A stretch of DNA of 64,000 nt, from contig NZ_JAIWPJ010000001.1 of NCBI RefSeq assembly GCF_020515625.1, positions 62,001 through 126,000 of the forward strand, given 5' to 3'. The first letter of the stretch is position 1, and the number at the start of each line of letters is the position of its first letter. Origin of the DNA: Natrinema amylolyticum (GTDB lineage: Archaea > Halobacteriota > Halobacteria > Halobacteriales > Natrialbaceae). The translations under genes and the position numbers were made by a program. Shown piece after piece: positions 43,629-58,179 of this stretch. The notes below the pieces were generated by a model that did not search any database, had not been told where the DNA came from, and saw nothing but the letters and a program-made list of their open reading frames with translations.

Positions 43629-43683
43629 AACAGACCCTTTCGATGGGTGTCATAAAAGCCGTAATGGGCAGCGTTTCGAAACA
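43466..43683. repeat. 218-bp direct repeat, copy 2
   Basis: Second copy of 42361-42579 in the same orientation, 1.1 kb away. With copy 1 it brackets the DUF7344 and HalOD1 genes. The left inverted end of module A follows after nine bases. Confidence 0.85.
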
Positions 43684-43862
43684 GCTGAGGAAGTCATAGA
43701 ACGTTCCCACGCCACCTCTCTGCAACTACCCGACGAACGGTAAATACAGGTGAAGTACTTAGCGCAGGTGAATTGCATAGTAACACTGAGTCCGACATTT
43801 TATATTGGTTTCATAGCAAACCCACGGGAGAACATTATAGTGTTCCCCGGAGTGAAGTGGAT

Positions 43863-44057
43863 ATGCGGATTGTCCTAAACCAGTCAACGGAAACGATCCA
43901 TAAACCGTCACATCACACCACTTTTCAGCCGACAGCCTGTGGCGCACTCAGACATGTCTCAGACGACCATATTTATGTGACTACCGAGGAAGAGATCGAG
44001 GCCAATCACAAGATGGATCATTGTGGGCGTTGCTTTGAGGATGCAGGTGGATATTAG
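43863..44057 (+). CDS. 64-residue Cys/His protein with CGRC motif
   Basis: ATG 43863 (MRIVLNQSTETIHKPSHH); a TTG 90 bases upstream is in frame but less likely. The pattern I-H-K-P, TACGALRHV, TTEEEIEANHKMDHCGRC and FEDAGGY is distinctive. Cys and His residues in these blocks could bind one zinc ion. I know this as a conserved haloarchaeal small protein type often near HalOD1 genes, without a function. It is cargo of module A. Confidence 0.65.
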   Translation: MRIVLNQSTETIHKPSHHTTFQPTACGALRHVSDDHIYVTTEEEIEANHKMDHCGRCFEDAGGY

Positions 44058-44070
44058 CAGAAAGTCGTAC

Positions 44071-44349
44071 TCAAGCCGCTGGTTGAAGTAGAAGATACTC
44101 GCCTCTCTCAACGGTGATGTGAAAGTTACTGAAGACGAATTTGACTGTCCCATCCTGCTGTGACTTACACAGGTCATCCAACATGTCTGGATCTATTGTC
44201 TCATATAATGGGGTTAAATTGCAAGGATCGCACTCTTTTAGTGAACTTACAGCACGAATAGTCGCTATACTCACTGATTCTCCTTCCGGAATTTCATACT
44301 CTACTATCACATGATCTTCCGGGAGTGAGTGTGGACTGTCCGGGGGCAT
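44071..44349 (-). CDS. HalOD1 protein
   Basis: ATG 44349 (MPPDSPHSLPED) gives 92 residues; an upstream ATG at 44481 is possible. Core VSIATIRAVSSLKECDPCNL, LYETIDPDMLDDLCKSQQDG and FVFSNFHITVERGEYLL. It is convergent with the CGRC protein, 13 bases apart, within module A. The resemblance to the HalOD1 protein at 43075 suggests exchange of such genes between cassettes. Confidence 0.78.
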   Translation of the reverse strand: MPPDSPHSLPEDHVIVEYEIPEGESVSIATIRAVSSLKECDPCNLTPLYETIDPDMLDDLCKSQQDGTVKFVFSNFHITVERGEYLLLQPAA

Positions 44350-44562
44350 ATTCTGAGTTACTCGGATAATCCTTACACCTGAAGTGGGGTGGTCCTGTCG
44401 GGTGCGCTCGCAGGCGTATCGGTCCAAACCACCGGCTACAATCCCTGTGAGTGGATTTTTCTTTTCACTTGAGAGTCTCATCTGGGGGTGTGATCCATCC
44501 CGGCTTACTCTGTACTGTCCACCAAGTGCTACGATAACTCCTTCGCCTAAACTGAGCGACCA

Positions 44563-44766
44563 CTACCGTCGCAAATCGAGCCGAATCTCGTGGTGCATTC
44601 GCGTTGTATATTCAGCACGGCTCTGCCAACATCTCCGATAGCTAATAGAAATACCAGCGTTAGACACGCACCTGTACTTGCCAGTCAGCACACTGTATGG
44701 ATATTCCCATTTCACAGATATTATCGCACTTTCCTGATCATTAATCACAAAGAGATTTTTCTCCAA
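44563..44766 (-). CDS. Possible 67-residue protein
   Basis: TTG 44766 would start it, next to the stop of the upstream 42-codon gene (TGAGTTG arrangement). The sequence NLFVINDQESAIISVKWEYP and later RCWQSRAEYTTRMHHEIRL have balanced composition. No motif, no ATG: weak candidate. Confidence 0.3.
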   Translation of the reverse strand: MEKNLFVINDQESAIISVKWEYPYSVLTGKYRCVSNAGISISYRRCWQSRAEYTTRMHHEIRLDLRR

Positions 44767-44767
44767 C

Positions 44768-44896
44768 TCATTTAGAACTAAGATCGTTGGTAATTTTGTA
44801 AGTTAGAGCCAAAATTCCAAGAATAATTCCGCTCCCTATGCCTAATAAAAACGGCGATTTTTTAGGAACAGAGGCATATATTTCTACTCTCTCCAT
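44768..44896 (-). CDS. Possible 42-residue single-helix membrane protein
   Basis: ATG 44896 to TGA 44768-44770. A short polar head with lysines (VPKKSP) precedes a helix FLLGIGSGIILGILALTY, then a polar tail KITNDLSSK. A typical small membrane protein in form, but the AT-rich setting makes chance frames common. Positively charged residues before the helix suggest the N-terminus stays inside. Confidence 0.4.
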   Translation of the reverse strand: MERVEIYASVPKKSPFLLGIGSGIILGILALTYKITNDLSSK

Positions 44897-45219
44897 CGTC
44901 ACATTGGGTTGGACTACTGACACAGCCCCATATATTCCTCTGAACTATATTGTTATCCAATAAGTATTGTTAATATATCGCTGTGTGAACACATAGGAAT
45001 TCTATTATATCCAACTTATCTTCTATAGTGAGCATGGTTTTGACCAAGGCTTGAATGAGTTCAGTGTGTCCTGAAAATTCGCCTAAAGAGGCGTTTTCAG
45101 ATTATACTACACTACCACACCCTGTCTGGATGTATCGGTTGGCTCACCGGAATAGGGGTGAAAACAACTCCATGAGACTAGTTCTATGACACCTCCACAG
45201 CTGCGAAAACAGGAATGGA
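44897..45219. other. AT-rich non-coding segment with the right end of module A
   Basis: No gene seen. Bases 45131-45197 are the conserved right subterminal sequence (TATCGGTTGG, TGAAAACAACTCCATGAGA) shared with 57067-57133. Confidence 0.5.
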
Positions 45220-50143: not shown

Positions 50144-50310
50144 AAAAACGCCCGGATGGGCACAGGGTAACGGCCGCCGGGCGGTGGGACAAGATGAGAT
50201 CGAGGTGGATGTTGGTTGGATCGTCCATGTCGCGCAGAGAACGCGACAGTGAATATGTTCGCCGGATCCCTTATCAACCCCTCCCGATTCCAGCATACTC
50301 GGAATCGGCA
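50144..50310. repeat. Copy of the 57.17-57.33 kb repeat (EVE-gene tail)
   Basis: About 170 bases matching 57167-57335 at roughly 80 percent, with identical blocks GTTGGATCGT and AACGCGACAGTGAATATGTTC shortened at either side. Same orientation. At 57.2 kb this sequence supplies the C-terminal codons of a truncated EVE-like gene. Confidence 0.7.
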
Positions 50311-50491
50311 CCTACTAATCTCTAAATCCTATTTGCGACACTCCTTAGATCTCATTCTCAGCCGAAGGGGGATTGGGAAAGGTTGCCTCCGGAAGGGGAG
50401 AGGAATGGGGGGATCGGAGGCAGTTGGTTGTTTTTGGGTATTGCTATTAACTATTTTGGGTAGTGTTGATTGCCCAATAGGTTGATAGCAT

Positions 50492-50693
50492 ATTGGTTCC
50501 AAGACGCAGTTGGCGAGGGATGGGGAGATCCGGTCGTCTATCCGCTACCAGATCCGCTCCGAGACATACCTCTCGCCATACCTGAGATCGGTTCATCAAA
50601 CGCCATGATATCCAGATTTCAGGCCCACCCTGATTGACACACCACCTGAGGGGATGGGGTTCCGACGTCGGCCTCTGGCCGGCGCTTCTCGAG
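50492..50693. repeat. Long direct repeat, copy 2
   Basis: Second copy of 47376-47583. The 2.9 kb between the copies carries the TrmB and HTH-10 genes. Confidence 0.75.
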
Positions 50694-50901
50694 ATACCAA
50701 ATTACGTTGGAGACACCGGTATCAGTATACCGACGATATGTAGAAGTACGGCAGGGCGCCACATCATCACCTGCGCCATACACGCACACTGCTCTGCCAG
50801 CGTACCTTCATAACCCACCCAACACCCTATCTTTTACGAGCAGCTGTATCCAGTAGCGCCGAGCTTGATGTTTATATACGAAGCCGCGGCCAACGCCAGC
50901 G

Positions 50902-51069
50902 ATGCTCTCTGACCGACAGCAAGACCTCCTGGTCGCCGTCGCATTGACCGAGTTCAGCATTCACTACGAGCAAGCTGATCCCGAACTCTCGAGAGAAGCC
51001 TGGCAGCTGGCCGCGGATCACCTCGTCGATCACGATGTCGAGCCCGCCGAGGTCGTCGCCACAGTTTAG
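50902..51069 (+). CDS. 55-residue helical protein, copy 1
   Basis: MLSDRQQDLLVAVALTEFSI, then DPELSREAWQLAADHLVDHD and VEPAEVVATV: two or three amphipathic helices, acidic. Preceded by GTTTATATACGAAGCCGCGG, a promoter conserved word for word in copy 2 (53389) apart from a few changes. Substitutions between the copies are mostly silent or conservative, so selection on the protein is likely. Function unknown. Confidence 0.7.
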   Translation: MLSDRQQDLLVAVALTEFSIHYEQADPELSREAWQLAADHLVDHDVEPAEVVATV

Positions 51070-51181: not shown

Positions 51182-53275
51182 ATGGAAGACTTAGAAGGAA
51201 AGCTACAGTCAATAGGTGCTACCAGAGTGTTTTTGGCCATCCTTTTGGCTGCAGCTGTCGGACTAGCGGCGGTCGGTCTTCCGGCCGTCTATGGGGGAAC
51301 GACAACAACTGCTCAGGCACACGCTTCGTCTGAACCCTCCCCCTACGTCGAATCGTACGAAGATATTTCTCAAGCAGAGTTGGCACAAGAAGAGTCGGGA
51401 CTCGACCCAGCCGACGATGTATATCTCCGTGACGATGGCAGTGCGGTCCTTCACTATCAAAACGACTCTGATGTCAACCGGGTCGAGGTAGGAATGGACG
51501 CGAGCGAGGGCCTCATGCGGATGCTTGTTGTCGACGATATTGAGAATGAAAGTGAGGAGTTAGAGAAGGCGAACTTCTCGGCAGTCCTCGATAATAATGG
51601 CTTCTCCAGTGAGGGGTCGTTCATTATGAAGCAACCGGACGAACTCGACGATCTCGAGGTTGATGTGTCCGGCCAGATCACTGACGAGACAAATCAATTC
51701 AACGCGAGTGCGAGTGGCTCATTCCAGAGCGAGGCTACAAGTACATCCGCAGCCGCCACAGAAGGGAAGATCACAGCCACTGCAGATCGGCTAGAAACGA
51801 GCGGACAGATCTCCGTTGACGGTGCAACTAGCGGCACTTCGACTGAGAAGGGTACATCATTAGCAGTCTCACTGACCGATACAGAGGAAGGATACACAGC
51901 CGATGTTCAGCAAGAACGTACGGTCTACAATTGGTCGGCCAGTCAGTGGGACACTCGTGAACAGGCAAAACAGACGCTCAATCAACAGTATGGCGCTCTC
52001 GCTGCGGATCTTGGTGGCACAAGCGAGATCACAATTTCGAACTATGACTTCGAAGAACAGAGTTCAGGTCAATACCGACTCAATATCGAGTTTACCGTCG
52101 AATACATCGGTATTGATGACGGGATCGAACAGCAGTTGACCGACCAATTAGTGAACGATCCCGAAACCGATCTGAGCCAATCAGAGGCCGAAAAGATTGC
52201 GACTAGCGTTACTGATCTCGAGATCGAAACCTTCGAATTCGCCCTAAGCGAGAATAGCAGTTCGATGGATGCCGGTTGGAACATCGCCCTTGCGAACTAT
52301 GACGAACTCACGCTCGCGATGGTTGATTTAGCCGAAGCAAGTTCCACGGGCACCGAGACATCGCAAAGTGACCTCGAGAATGCTCGGACAGCTATCGAAG
52401 CACAACAGGCAGCAGATCTCGAGTGGACTCTCGAATGGGATACAGCTGCCGAACAGACGTTGAACCAGGGAATACAATTTGACGCCGAAATCACGAGTAC
52501 TACCGAAAACTGGGGTGCATATATTGACGAGCTCCAGGCTAACGATATTGAGACCCCGAAAAACATTGACTTCGAGCTAACTGCTAATACCGACGGAGAG
52601 AACCTCTCAGTTGATGCACAGTTTGATGTCGAAGCTAAAGATTTGGCCAGCCAGTCCATTAAGTCGTTAGCAACGTCTGTCCAGAGTGGACCAACGAGTA
52701 CGACCGGATCCTCGAGCGCTAACGAGTTTATAACCGCATTGTCTGAATCCGAACTCGAGGTTGCTCGCATCGATGCGAACATCGGTAACGGTGAGGTGCG
52801 TGTCGAAGGTGGGGCGAAGTTCGAGAACATGAGCAAGATGATGGATTCCCTTAGTGGAGCGCTCCCTATTGGGGGGGTAGCGACAGAACAAGGTGATGAT
52901 TCCGTATCGATGTACGTCTACGTCGACGATATGGGCGACATTGACACCGAGTCGGCGACAAAATCGGACCTTGAGCACCTCAGTGTGGTTAATTCTGAAA
53001 CGACCATTCATGAGGCTGGTAAATGGGACAAAGACTTCCCCCAGCCAGCTTCCGATGAAATAAGAGAGTACCTGAATGTGGAGAACGAAAGTAGCGACAG
53101 TGATGGTGGAGAGCAAAATAGCGGTGCTGATCTTCCCTATACAAATGAAAGCGGTATCGTTGATGAAGATGGATTCAACGCTGCTGTCAGCGATTTCCTG
53201 AGTGGTGAACTCAAAGGCGATTACAACTTCAATGAACTCGTCTCGGCATACCTCTCGGGTGAACCACTAGAATAA
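51182..53275 (+). CDS. Large secreted surface protein, 697 residues
   Basis: The N-terminal signal is VFLAILLAAAVGLAAVGLPA (residues 16-35) with cleavage probably after the AQA near 45. The mature chain is very acidic and rich in Ser/Thr/Gln with many N-glycosylation sequons (NES, NFS, NAS, NWS, NSS, NLS, NMS). Beta-rich regions dominate. The end DEDGFNAAVSDFLSGELKGD, then NFNELVSAYLSGEPLE resembles the second half of a dockerin-like calcium loop. No membrane anchor or sorting motif is seen at the C-terminus. TATA box TTTATAC at 51151-51157 gives a leaderless transcript. The gene lies between the two copies of a small helical-protein gene. Confidence 0.75.
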   Translation: MEDLEGKLQSIGATRVFLAILLAAAVGLAAVGLPAVYGGTTTTAQAHASSEPSPYVESYEDISQAELAQEESGLDPADDVYLRDDGSAVLHYQNDSDVNRVEVGMDASEGLMRMLVVDDIENESEELEKANFSAVLDNNGFSSEGSFIMKQPDELDDLEVDVSGQITDETNQFNASASGSFQSEATSTSAAATEGKITATADRLETSGQISVDGATSGTSTEKGTSLAVSLTDTEEGYTADVQQERTVYNWSASQWDTREQAKQTLNQQYGALAADLGGTSEITISNYDFEEQSSGQYRLNIEFTVEYIGIDDGIEQQLTDQLVNDPETDLSQSEAEKIATSVTDLEIETFEFALSENSSSMDAGWNIALANYDELTLAMVDLAEASSTGTETSQSDLENARTAIEAQQAADLEWTLEWDTAAEQTLNQGIQFDAEITSTTENWGAYIDELQANDIETPKNIDFELTANTDGENLSVDAQFDVEAKDLASQSIKSLATSVQSGPTSTTGSSSANEFITALSESELEVARIDANIGNGEVRVEGGAKFENMSKMMDSLSGALPIGGVATEQGDDSVSMYVYVDDMGDIDTESATKSDLEHLSVVNSETTIHEAGKWDKDFPQPASDEIREYLNVENESSDSDGGEQNSGADLPYTNESGIVDEDGFNAAVSDFLSGELKGDYNFNELVSAYLSGEPLE

Positions 53276-53388
53276 TACCGCATATATCTATCAATAATTT
53301 TCTAACCGGCTTCTCCTCTAATTGTGAGCACTAAAGCCAGCAGGACTGAGTCAAAGGTTTATATCAGAAGCCGCGGCTAACGTCGGCG

Positions 53389-53565
53389 ATGCTATCCAAC
53401 CGACAGCGAGACCTCCTGGTCGCCGTCGCACTGACCGAGTTCAGCGTCCACTACGAAGCCGCTGATCCCGAACTCTCGGAAGAAGCCTGGCAGCTGGCCG
53501 CCGATCGCCTCGTTGAGCACGATGTCGAGCCCGCCGAAGCGGTCGGGGAACTCGAGATTGGATGA
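53389..53565 (+). CDS. 58-residue helical protein, copy 2
   Basis: MLSNRQRDLLVAVALTEFSV, DPELSEEAWQLAADRLVEHD and VEPAEAVGELEIG. About 80 percent identical to copy 1 over 50 residues; only the last residues differ, where the sequence runs into module B. Its TGA (53563-53565) lies inside the 15-base inverted end of that module. Promoter GTTTATATCAGAAGCCGCGG is shared with copy 1. Confidence 0.7.
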   Translation: MLSNRQRDLLVAVALTEFSVHYEAADPELSEEAWQLAADRLVEHDVEPAEAVGELEIG

Positions 53566-56500
53566 GGGTGTCATAGAATAGTTCGCACGCCCCTCCGCGA
53601 CTACTGATGAACGGTAAGTACAGGTGAAGGCGTTACCAGAGTAGCTATTGATCTATCCAATGGCTGTTAAAAATCGCGTGCTAAATACAGAGGATAGATT
53701 CAGAGCAGTGGCTCCCGTCAGCGGTGTCCTAAGGAGATCCTCACCTGACGCGAGACAGGGGCTGGATTCCGGAAGGAGAGCAACCCGCTATCTCGTGATA
53801 TCCAATCCACGACCGGTTCCGGACCCGGTCAATACACGATGAATTTTTCCTACCCGAGATGCATTACCGGTCATATGAGCGATCAAGCCGGTACTACAGA
53901 GGGCGGGTTTTGGGCGGACGCTACCGGCGAGCGCGCGCTCGATCGTTACTCGAAGCTGGTCAATATGGTAGACGACGGGATCTACCAACTCGATGCCGAG
54001 GGGCGGTTCGTCGCTGTCAACGACACCATTGTCGAGGTTACCGGCTACTCCCGGGAGGAGCTTCTCAACGAGTACGCGTCGCTTGTGCTCGCCGACGAGG
54101 ACGTCAGTCGTCTCCAGCGCGAAATCGACCGACGGCTCACCGACGACGACCGCCGGGACGATCCGATCGAATTCACGGCCCGGACAGCTGACGGCGACGC
54201 GATCCCGTGTGAACTGGAGTTACACCTACTCGTCGAGGACGGCGCGTTTCAGGGGTCCATAGGAGTCGTACGCGACATCACCGAACGCAGGCAGGTAGAA
54301 CGCGACCTCCAACAGGAACGTGATCTCCTCGAGGGGGTCGTGGAAACCAGCCCCGTGGGGATCGCGGTTGTCGACGCCGACGGCAAGGTAACGTTCGCCA
54401 ACGAGCACGCCGAGGAAATTTACGGTCGCTCTCGCGACGAACTCAGCCAGTTCTCCCACGACGACCCTCGCTTGGACCTCGTCGACGAGAACAGCGAGCC
54501 AGTCGAGAGGGGGGAAATGCCGTTCGACCGCGTAGTCACACAGGAAGAGGCGATACACGATCAGATCCTCGGCCTTCGCAGACCCTCTAGTGACCGCGTC
54601 TGGGTGTCAGTCAACGGCGCCCCGCAATGGAACGAAGACGATGAACTCGAACGGGCCGTGTTCGCCTTCGAGGATGTCACCGAGCAACGGGAGAACGAAC
54701 GCGAGCTTGAAAAGAGCGAGCGGCGGTACCGGACGCTCATTGAAAACTTCCCGAACGGAGCGGTGGGTATGTTCGATGAGAACATGCGGTACACCGCCGT
54801 TGGCGGACAGCTCCTGAAAAGTCTCGATATAGAGCCGGAGGACCGAATCGGGAGCACTATCCACGAACTCCATCCGGACGTCCTCGTCGAACAGATCGAG
54901 CCGTACTTCGCGGGGGCACTCGATGGAGAAGCCGATTCCTTCGAGATCGAGTTCGGGGGCCGACACCTCCACGCGCACGCTCTCCCCGTCAGAGACGCCA
55001 CAGACGAGGTATTCGCCGGCATGGTCGTCGTCAGGGACGTCACCGAGCGCAAAGAATACAAACGCGAGATCGAGCGGCACAACGAACAACTCGAGACCAT
55101 GTTCGAGGTGCTCCCGGTCGGTGTCGTCGTCGCAGAGGCCGACGGGCAGATCGTCGAGGCCAACGAGAACGCACACGACATCTGGGGCGGGGACGTATTC
55201 GACGCAGATTCTGTCGCCGAGTACGAACAGTACCCAGTGAGATGGGCCGAATCGGGTGACCGGGTCGAGCCTGAGGAGATGACCCTGGCTCGCGTGATCA
55301 ACGGCGAAGAGGTGGGCGAACCCGAAATCTTCGAGATCGAGACTGCTGATGGCGAGCGCCGCCTCGTCGAAGCGGAGGGCATGCCGATCCGAGACGAGAA
55401 CGGCGAGGTAGATCGCGGCGTCATCACCTTGAGCGACGTCACCGAGCGCATGGAGGCCCAGCGCCAACTCGAGGAATCTGAACGTCTCTACCGAACGCTC
55501 GCCGAGCACTTCCCGAACGGTGTCGTTGGCGTCTACGACCACGACCTTCGGTACACGCTGGCGGCGGGCGAGAAGGCCGGCGACCCAGCGCCCAGCGCAG
55601 AGGAGGGCCTGGGGACGCGAATGCCGGATCTCTACCCCGACGACGCCGTGGCCGACCTCGAACCGCTGTTCCGGGCCGCTATCGAGGACGGCGAAAGCGG
55701 GAGTATTGAAACCCAGGTTGTCGGTCGGCACTGGCGAGTGTGGGCCATGCCGCTACGGGACGGTGACGGCGATATCTTCGCCGGTCTGAGCTTCGCCCAA
55801 GATATCACCGAGCGCAAGCAGCGTGAACGCGAACTCGAACGGACGCTCGGCTTACTCGAGCGGACCGAGCGTATCGCGGACGTCGGCGGGTGGGAGATCG
55901 ACCCGAAGACCCAGGACGTGTTCTGGACCGACAACATCTTCGAACTGCTAGAGGTGCCCGGCGACGAGGAACCGCCGCTGGACGAGGCGCTGGACATGTA
56001 CCACGAGGAGGACAGGCCGCGGGTCGAGGCGGCCATCGAGGACGCGCTCGCCTCTGGCAATCCCTTCGACATCGAGGTACGGCTCCGGACCGCGGCCAGC
56101 AGTGAGGTGCGCTGGCTCCGGCTACAGGGAGTCCCGGAAACTGCCGACGGCGAGGTCGTCTCGTTCCGCGGTGCGGCCCAGGACATCACCGAGCGCAAAC
56201 AGCGCGAACAACAACTCGAAAAGCTGATCGAGAGACTCGAAGAATCGAATGAGCGCCTCGAACAGTTCGCCTACGCCGCATCGCACGACCTGCAAGAACC
56301 CCTGCGGATGGTGTCGAGCTACCTGCAGCTGATCGAACAGCGCTACGGGGACGCCCTTGACGAGGACGGCGAGGAATTCCTCGAGTTCGCGGTTGACGGC
56401 GCGGATCGGATGCGCAACATGATCGAGGGACTCCTCCAGTACTCCCGAGTCGAGACACAGGGCGACGACTTCGCGCCCGTCGATCTGGACGATGTTATCG

Positions 56501-57133
56501 CAGACGTCCACAACGATCTCCAGGTCCGGATCGAGGAGAACGACGCCGAGATAACCGCCGACGCGTTACCCGTCGTGGAGGGGGACGGCGGACAGTTACG
56601 CCAGGTGTTCCAGAACCTGCTTGACAACGCCATCGAGTATAGCAGCGACGGACCGCCCCGGGTTAATATCTCGGCCGAACGAAACGAGGGCCAGTGGGTT
56701 GTCTCGGTTAGCGACGAGGGGATCGGTATCGACCCATCCGACACCGACCGCGTCTTCGAGGTGTTCCAGAGCCTCCACGCGAATGACGAGCACACGGGGA
56801 CGGGAATCGGCCTCGCGCTGTGCGAGCGCATCATCGAGCGCCACGGTGGCGAGATATGGGTCGAGTCCGAGCCCGGCGAGGGAGCGACGTTTTCCTTTAC
56901 ACTCCCTGCGGCGAGTGACCAGAAGAGATAGGTTCGCTTTACCACCCGGTTTAATTTATTGGTTTGATACCGCCCACAGTGATGTGTACGCGCCCTGTAC
57001 TCCGTACACTCCTGTGGACTTAGTCCGTATCTGATAGAATCCTCGTTGGTCAGTGCGCACACCTACGTATCGGTTGGTTCTCCGAAATCGGAATGAAAAC
57101 AGCTCCATGAGAATCGTACTATGACACCCTCAT
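53562..57133. mobile_element. Module B: 3.6-kb inverted-end element carrying a PAS kinase
   Basis: ATGAGGGTGTCATAG at 53562-53576 and its exact complement at 57119-57133 are perfect 15-base inverted ends. Inside the ends lie conserved stretches also found in module A: left CACGCC, ACGGTAAGTACAGGTGAAG; right TATCGGTTGG, TGAAAACAGCTCCATGAGA. The only cargo is the histidine kinase gene. No transposase frame exists between the ends. Confidence 0.68.
53875..56931 (+). CDS. Six-PAS sensor histidine kinase, element-borne
   Basis: ATG 53875 (MSDQAGTTEGGFW) is chosen by likeness to the chromosomal kinase start MSDRGAVTG; 1018 residues. Six PAS units lie at about 20-145, 150-290, 293-405, 410-530, 535-645 and 655-780; the last is a PAS_3 type with GGWEIDPKTQDVFWTDNIFE. 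HisKA is at about 795-865 (H in AASHDLQEPLRM) and HATPase_c at about 900-1012 (FQNLLDNAIEYSS, DEGIGI, GTGIGLAL). No transmembrane segment. The kinase half is closely similar to that of the 2680-6042 gene. The receiver at 40894 is a possible partner. It fills module B alone. Confidence 0.9.
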   Translation: MSDQAGTTEGGFWADATGERALDRYSKLVNMVDDGIYQLDAEGRFVAVNDTIVEVTGYSREELLNEYASLVLADEDVSRLQREIDRRLTDDDRRDDPIEFTARTADGDAIPCELELHLLVEDGAFQGSIGVVRDITERRQVERDLQQERDLLEGVVETSPVGIAVVDADGKVTFANEHAEEIYGRSRDELSQFSHDDPRLDLVDENSEPVERGEMPFDRVVTQEEAIHDQILGLRRPSSDRVWVSVNGAPQWNEDDELERAVFAFEDVTEQRENERELEKSERRYRTLIENFPNGAVGMFDENMRYTAVGGQLLKSLDIEPEDRIGSTIHELHPDVLVEQIEPYFAGALDGEADSFEIEFGGRHLHAHALPVRDATDEVFAGMVVVRDVTERKEYKREIERHNEQLETMFEVLPVGVVVAEADGQIVEANENAHDIWGGDVFDADSVAEYEQYPVRWAESGDRVEPEEMTLARVINGEEVGEPEIFEIETADGERRLVEAEGMPIRDENGEVDRGVITLSDVTERMEAQRQLEESERLYRTLAEHFPNGVVGVYDHDLRYTLAAGEKAGDPAPSAEEGLGTRMPDLYPDDAVADLEPLFRAAIEDGESGSIETQVVGRHWRVWAMPLRDGDGDIFAGLSFAQDITERKQRERELERTLGLLERTERIADVGGWEIDPKTQDVFWTDNIFELLEVPGDEEPPLDEALDMYHEEDRPRVEAAIEDALASGNPFDIEVRLRTAASSEVRWLRLQGVPETADGEVVSFRGAAQDITERKQREQQLEKLIERLEESNERLEQFAYAASHDLQEPLRMVSSYLQLIEQRYGDALDEDGEEFLEFAVDGADRMRNMIEGLLQYSRVETQGDDFAPVDLDDVIADVHNDLQVRIEENDAEITADALPVVEGDGGQLRQVFQNLLDNAIEYSSDGPPRVNISAERNEGQWVVSVSDEGIGIDPSDTDRVFEVFQSLHANDEHTGTGIGLALCERIIERHGGEIWVESEPGEGATFSFTLPAASDQKR

Positions 57134-57174
57134 TGGATAGCTATCGCTAAGCGTCAAATCACCTTGAAAAGACC
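56932..57174. other. Right flank of module B
   Basis: No gene. AT-rich GTTTAATTTATTGGTTTG follows the kinase stop and may end transcription. The conserved right subterminal sequence is 57067-57133. Confidence 0.45.
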
Positions 57175-57699
57175 TCAAAAGGCCGCCCGGATGGGCGCAG
57201 GGGGATGGCCGCCGGACGGTATGGACAAGATCGGGATGGGTTGGGTGCTGGTTGGATCGTGTCGCGCGGTGGGGAACGCGACAGTGAATATGTTCACCCT
57301 GACCCATATCAACCCCGCTCCGATTCCAAGTATGTTGGAATCGTCCTCTTTCTGTAGCGAGGATCCTCTCCCTTCCAAGAGTGGCTCGCGAAGAACAGCG
57401 CCGACCTCGAGTTCATCTGGCCAGAGCGGTTTATCTTTCTTTGATTTTCTCCCTACTACACCATATCCAATGATTCCCCACTCTGTGTTATCGCTAAATT
57501 CGCGGTCTGTCCGAAAAAGGACAACATCTCCGATCGATAATTCGTCATACCGGGCTTCTAGACCTTCTCGCATTCCCCACAAGTTATGGCGATAGGCTGT
57601 GAGCCAATTCTCGGGATTTCCCATTGCTTGTTTGAACGTCAGATTCGCATTAGCGGTAGACAACATCTGTCCACCGGTAGAATCAGCTCTATCTGACAT
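57175..57699 (-). pseudogene. EVE/PUA-like domain gene with replaced C-terminus
   Basis: ATG 57699. Residues 1-135 look intact: LTFKQAMGNPENWLTAYRHN, LWGMREGLEARYDELSIGDV, VLFRTDREFSDNTEWGIIGY, then DDSNILGIGAGLIW. That is the beta-barrel pattern of EVE/PUA-type domains, which recognise modified bases and often accompany defence nucleases. From residue 136 on (VRVNIFTVAFPTARHD) the codons come from the 170-bp repeat also present at 50144-50310, so the native end has been lost. The chain is therefore called a truncated, possibly inactive copy. Confidence 0.55.
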
Positions 57700-57804: not shown

Positions 57805-58179
57805 TAGCGAAAAGTCAGACTGGCCGATTCGAGACGGTACAACGGTGCTGCTCCAGCAGTAGGAGAGGATAGGACCTCGATAGCGAGTGTTGTCGAGTCC
57901 GCTTAGGAGGGAAGAGAATAGACTATGGCCGAGCGGTAAGTACAGGGACCGCATGTACCGCAATGACTATCGATCTCTCTGAAATCAATCAAAAACGCGG
58001 TACAAGACTTAGAGAATGTATTTATCACAGGAACAAATTTTCCCCAACCTAATTCAAATGAACCCACTGTTAGATAACTGGATATTCGGAGCGTGCTTCG
58101 TGCGTTCGAACGCCTGGGAAATCTCCTTCGCGGACTACGTGGGCGACCTGCGTAGTACGCGTTTGAATCTGGTAGTAGG

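Follow-up and report, generated by a model that had tools for sequence, protein, structure and literature searches.

Positions 53564-57131 of the 64,000-nucleotide stretch of Natrinema amylolyticum DNA analysed here (the window) very probably form a non-autonomous mobile insertion cassette (MIC), in which two end modules, each bounded by a terminal inverted repeat (TIR) of the ISH11 group of insertion sequences (IS), enclose a captured PAS-domain histidine kinase gene and its upstream region, and which would be moved in trans and act like a slot. We base this assignment on the ISH11-type ends, on the target-site duplication (TSD) together with empty sites in related genomes, and on the lack of a transposase inside the element.

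An earlier sequence-only reading had reported 15-base inverted ends around the kinase gene, and these are indeed present, with ATGAGGGTGTCATAG at 53562-53576 and its exact inverse copy at 57119-57133. Such a 15-bp inverted match alone is weak evidence and near chance in the window: seven exact inverted 15-mer pairs (about four independent loci) lie 0.2-6 kb apart in the 64 kb, and first-order simulated window sequence contained 0-7 such pairs, with a mean of 1.4. What sets the ends apart from this background is the target duplication, along with the empty sites and the existence of a family of similar cassettes. Once the border is moved by 2 bases, a perfect 13-bp TIR (GAGGGTGTCATAG) is found at 53564-53576 and 57119-57131, within an imperfect inverted repeat of 26 bp (81%), while the outer AT (2 bp) of the reported 15-mer belongs to the target duplication on both the left and the right. 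The latter, overlooked in the sequence-only reading, is a perfect 7-bp direct repeat, ATTGGAT, on either side of the element (53557-53563 and 57132-57138), and the true span of the element is thus 53564-57131, or 3,568 bp. An Rfam scan of the window gave no matches. The features of the kinase cassette and its target are:

53389-53565, forward strand: 58-amino acid (aa) gene targeted by the cassette, belonging to a flank module with multiple copies (sequence, empty-site comparison)
53557-53563, forward strand: target-site duplication ATTGGAT, left copy (sequence)
53564-53576, forward strand: left TIR GAGGGTGTCATAG, first 13 bp of the ISH11-type end (sequence)
53564-53624, forward strand: left end module, conserved in other family members, with final bases ...GAACGGTAAGTACAGG (left-end profile model, contig 115564-115624)
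53637-57019, forward strand: cargo segment common to the Natrinema zhouii chromosomal kinase locus (DNA comparison)
53839-56931, forward strand: soluble sensor histidine kinase with multiple PAS, HisKA and HATPase_c domains (open reading frame, domain scan)
57062-57131, reverse strand: right end module, conserved in other family members (right-end profile model, contig 119062-119131)
57119-57131, reverse strand: right TIR (sequence)
57132-57138, forward strand: target-site duplication ATTGGAT, right copy (sequence)

The cassette inserted into the 58-aa gene at its stop codon, which reads TAG in the empty sites and TGA here, leaving the protein unaltered. An empty-site comparison, as suggested in the sequence-only reading, found intact homologous sites in relatives in the form of flank-module copies: the module, consisting of the 58-aa gene and downstream DNA, is uninterrupted at this point in other genomes of the family, and the best-matching empty copies read GAGATxGGATAGCTATCGCT straight across it. 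The combination of the 7-bp TSD and relatives with an intact homologous site proves the insertion. The flank module itself (window 53263-53565 and 57132-57440) is multi-copy in the genus, with partial copies also near 50149-51058. At the same point genome G335 carries a different stretch of about 390 bp with a small Cys-rich open reading frame, and inspection of the insertion at the homologous site in this genome (L214, L215) did not reveal the cassette TIR.

The kinase is the only substantial coding gene inside the element, and no transposase gene or remnant was found between the two ends, so that the description of a transposase-free unit with a 1018-residue sensor kinase as its sole gene holds when translation is taken from the ATG at 53875 (1030 aa from the ATG at 53839). 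The H, N and G box motifs are all present, and comparison with the chromosomal homologue of N. zhouii (L112; 80% aa identity) gave a non-synonymous substitution rate (dN) of 0.105 and a synonymous rate (dS) of 0.69, a low dN/dS of about 0.15 which indicates that the kinase is under purifying selection. DNA homology with the N. zhouii locus is confined to 53637-57019, the sequence outside this segment differs, and there are no cassette ends at the N. zhouii locus. Similarly, a plasmid of Natrinema sp. DC36 encodes a kinase with 80% identity without recognised cassette ends; an unbroken copy of the flank module lies about 2 kb away. Since these homologues occur without cassette ends, the kinase is separable from them. 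PAS kinases are present in three cassettes, namely the window element, L123 (on the opposite strand) and L129, and in a tree with homologues lacking recognised ends these three do not cluster; the well-supported branches need at least three label changes, and the kinase subfamily has therefore been repeatedly gained or lost by cassettes.

With the two ends as BLAST queries, 60 and 137, respectively, of the 392 genomes searched within the order contained a match. Profile models of the end modules (63 positions for the left and 72 for the right) matched in 94/125 and 95/125 Natrialbaceae genomes, respectively, and among the top 150 left and top 150 right profile matches there were 62 facing left/right pairs, spanning 281-3,831 bp, versus seven neighbours in the wrong arrangement. 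Direct repeats of at least 5 bp were present at the ends of 35/62 pairs, compared with 3.4% in controls using flanks mismatched between elements. Paired inverse ends thus occur elsewhere in haloarchaea and are not confined to the window, which itself contains a second cassette of the family about 8 kb upstream of the kinase cassette:

43681-43687 and 45197-45203: target-site duplication ACAGCTG, both copies (sequence)
43687-45196, forward strand: second cassette, with HalOD1 cargo and no transposase (end models, TSD ACAGCTG)
43687-43750: left module (left-end model)
44071-44481, reverse strand: HalOD1-domain protein, the main cargo (domain scan)
45127-45194: right module (right-end model)

The cargo of the family is diverse and includes response regulators (L127, L130, L155), Bat helix-turn-helix regulators (L130, L131, L134), HalOD1 proteins (L131 and the second window cassette) and DUF7344 proteins (L130, L157), as well as TrmB, HTH_63, parts of an ABC importer with a ModE-like regulator, a Cys/Met pyridoxal phosphate enzyme with MOSC, SnoaL, LUD, FKBP, a class I tRNA-synthetase-like protein and others. 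None of the 40 cargo proteins scanned contained a transposase domain. The idea of a transposon-like unit without a transposase is therefore borne out by the TSD, the ISH11-group ends, the empty sites and dozens of relatives, while the idea of a kinase as its characteristic, defining cargo has to be given up, as it is one among many cargos. An unusual passenger is found in L138 (467-1774; TSD GAACACAC), a 436-aa class I tRNA-synthetase protein of the W/Y type. With regard to location, all 23 left ends listed among the top matches for genomes G237, G252, G406 and G407 are on secondary replicons and none on the largest, and in G154 two of four left ends are on the largest contig.

The cassette TIR is also present in ISH11, ISNpe17 and ISHla6-type elements (IS5 family, ISH11 group). 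In related haloarchaea (L088, L089) it bounds an IS of 1,069 bp encoding a DDE transposase which is 99.7% identical to that of ISHla6 and 85% to that of ISH11; ISH11 on pNRC100 is 1068 bp long, with TIR GAGGGTGTCATAGAAC and TSD GTTCAAGG, and over the first 28 positions of the cassette left consensus the left end of ISNpe17 agrees at 26. Published target duplications of ISH11 measure 6, 8 and 9 bp (PMC10264941). All that survives of an ISH11-type transposase in the source genome is a decayed C-terminus, which lies about 12 bp away from an exact copy of the TIR; the remaining TIR-like sites (besides contig position 1162047) carry one mismatch and were taken as chance matches or remnants. Left ends were present in 50/53 genomes with an ISH11-type transposase versus 44/72 without (p=1.5e-5, a statistic which ignores phylogeny). 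In the mechanism that we propose, an ISH11-group transposase, of which only a remnant is left in the source genome, would have acted in trans on the cassette ends to cause insertion; the kinase would be carried as a passenger which presumably stays functional in the host, and the inserted cassette would serve as a slot, the interior of which may be replaced through recombination within or close to the inner motifs that are conserved in both end modules.

Six same-site sets comprising 16 cassettes have their flanks, and usually also the target duplication, in common, yet contain unrelated interiors. When L134 (2,061 bp, with DUF7344-like and Bat genes) is compared with L184 (284 bp), the flanks are 92-98% identical and the modules 100% identical as far as GTACAGG in the left module and CGCATACC in the right one, followed by complete divergence, and the small interior of L184 is not a fragment of the large interior of L134. 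Over all same-site pairs the mean identity is 83-89% in the modules (inner and outer halves) and 81-84% in the flanks, versus 49% in the interiors, which drop to this random level immediately inside the inner motif; different-site pairs have 65-79% identity in the modules and also 49% in the interiors. Conversely, a 1.8-kb gene cluster of L130 and L134 is 81% identical yet inverted relative to the ends, and the ends of these two cassettes are only as similar as those from different sites. The inner motifs, GAACGGTAAGTACAG (or ...RAACGGTAAGTAC...) on the left and GAACGGATAGTTC on the right, form an imperfect direct repeat flanking the cargo, and in an alignment of 21 left ends the motif columns show little or no variation. 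Ends and cargo are therefore uncoupled, the most surprising finding of the analysis, and interiors appear to have been replaced in situ, within or close to the inner motifs, as judged from unrelated interiors between same-site modules and flanks and from the same cluster lying inverted between different ends; exact crossover points cannot be placed within the motifs because these are nearly invariant. In L182 the left flank is that of L162's site whereas the right flank comes from a different site, and L182 is likely a recombinant, and recombination of this kind may account for some of the missing TSDs. One set (TGGAACA) is located in a dispersed repeat, and could include independent insertions at a preferred target.

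Several further observations were made on cassette interiors. L136, L137 and L172, each from a genome of a different genus, occupy one site (TSD CTCGTGG) and have three unrelated interiors. The smallest cassettes (about 290 bp, L179-L184) contain a related GC-rich, hairpin-like interior of about 150 bp, as if this were a default filler of otherwise empty slots. A recurring sequence of about 90 nt, GGTAAGTACAGG..GTTACC..(N)..GCTGAATACAGAGGAT, was found in the window at 53610-53712 and about 57922-58020, and in L002, L003, L004, L102, L115, L119, L120 and L121; it is inside some cassettes and elsewhere stands without cassette ends and with unrelated upstream sequence, and its GGTAA and TTACC are able to pair, with one compensatory change (L058); it may represent an RNA, an operator or a scar of recombination.

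The alternative that survives best, albeit as a doubtful one, is that a dedicated recombinase of an integron-like or Xer-like kind swaps cargo by acting on the inner motifs, with the role of the TIRs limited to moving the slot. Same-site cassettes that keep flanks and both modules around interiors at 49% identity, near-invariant motif columns in the 21 left ends, and the same cargo in both orientations all fit this explanation. Set against it, no recombinase was linked to the motifs (no search was aimed at one), ordinary homologous recombination or gene conversion would likewise find its best substrate in conserved motifs of about 25 bp, and the motifs could instead be transposase-binding sites; the small number of same-site sets also counts against it. 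Its extension to a two-layer system, with ISH11-type TIRs relocating the slot and a site-specific reaction at the inner motifs exchanging the gene, resulting in integron-like sockets on haloarchaeal megaplasmids loaded with sensors, regulators and enzymes, is equally tentative. It is improbable that two miniature inverted-repeat transposable elements (MITEs) came to flank a gene by chance and moved jointly as a composite: while cassettes of about 290 bp with only a non-coding interior exist, each cassette consists of one left and one right module, the window cassette has no extra inner ends beside its cargo, and the small cassettes hold their own related interior of about 150 bp which is absent from the cargo-bearing same-site partner. 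Less probable still is a kinase nested by chance within, or beside, a decayed ISH11-type IS, a case which the sequence-only reading had itself raised; although the TIRs are of ISH11-group type and a decayed ISH11-type remnant is present elsewhere in the genome, the end modules and inner motifs are conserved despite unrelated cargo and are absent from ISH11 past about 28 bp, and not one of 40 scanned cargo proteins is a transposase. We rejected this explanation on the lack of a transposase remnant inside the element and on the family-wide conservation of the end modules. The explanation of an ordinary kinase gene with inverted ends that match by chance has next to no probability, as the expected 1.4 matches per 64 kb and the seven pairs in the window would allow for the 15-mer but not for the 62 paired ends and the second cassette, and it was rejected on the TSD and the intact homologous sites.

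The assignment as an MIC moved by an ISH11-group transposase also has points against it. Actual transposition was not observed, 27/62 pairs are without a recognisable TSD, and the empty sites come from a multi-copy module whose copies are 75-83% identical, rather than from the orthologous locus of a sister strain. An intact ISH11 transposase was not found in the source genome, a situation which is familiar since a haloarchaeal MITE with all matching transposases broken has been reported (PMC3119063), and the association of transposase and ends is confounded by kinship among the genomes. Finally, only about 26-28 terminal bp are common to the cassettes and ISH11-group elements, and with so short a likeness some other transposase could mobilise the cassettes.

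PAS kinases, HalOD1 proteins and Bat-type regulators occur in haloarchaea in very large and variable sets, the shuffling of which between replicons is poorly explained. A widely distributed family of cassettes without a transposase, which carry such genes and appear to have their content replaced in place at fixed sites, provides a concrete and testable route for this, and haloarchaea may exchange sensors and other genes through ready-made slots; as a warning, many of the 'hypothetical' genes of haloarchaeal plasmids are the cargo of cassettes whose ends lack annotation. The suggestion of a new way to spread sensory modules was overstated with regard to mobility, as MICs are already known, and too narrow with regard to cargo. 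No description of ISH11-type cargo cassettes was found in the open literature searched (most subscription journals and ISfinder were outside reach), and as far as this literature shows, what is new is an ISH11-type haloarchaeal cassette family with asymmetric modules, a breadth of cargo that includes sensors, and the apparent replacement of interiors at the same site.

A fixed slot with exchangeable content would operate much as integron gene cassettes and Xer-site (pdif) modules do. Unlike in those systems, no attC-like or dif-like site or recombinase was identified (a recombinase was not searched for) and there is one interior per slot, and we do not claim integron-like membership for the cassettes. 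Among haloarchaeal MITEs, ISH2 is moved by ISH8 (PMC10264941) and the HqIRS elements of Haloquadratum are transposase-free (PMC3119063), and the cassettes resemble them in having no transposase, in their presumed movement in trans and in having only terminal bases in common with the helper IS. The known haloarchaeal MITEs are short and mostly non-coding, with only ISH2-type elements reported to have a likely open reading frame; the window element, with its 3,568 bp and full kinase gene, falls outside this description, which does fit its relatives of about 290 bp. With the ISH11 group (ISH11, ISHla6, ISNpe17, ISHma6) the cassettes have in common 13-28 bp of terminal sequence and target duplications of 6-9 bp, but they lack the IS5-family DDE transposase and their modules are unrelated past about 28 bp, so the window unit is of ISH11 type in its TIR and TSD and not in coding capacity. 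The closest match is the MIC as defined in PMC3129680, with MIC231 of Bacillus cereus (IS231, IS4 family) as the type case; in a title cited in PMC2266710 the IS231-MIC231 elements are called modular. As with MIC231, the window element has terminal repeats of a known IS, a target duplication (here with empty sites), an unrelated passenger gene, no transposase and expected movement in trans. Unlike MIC231, the haloarchaeal cassettes have IS5/ISH11-type ends, long, asymmetric end modules (63 and 72 bp) in which the inner motifs are conserved, a much broader cargo, and interiors that appear to be replaced at the same site.
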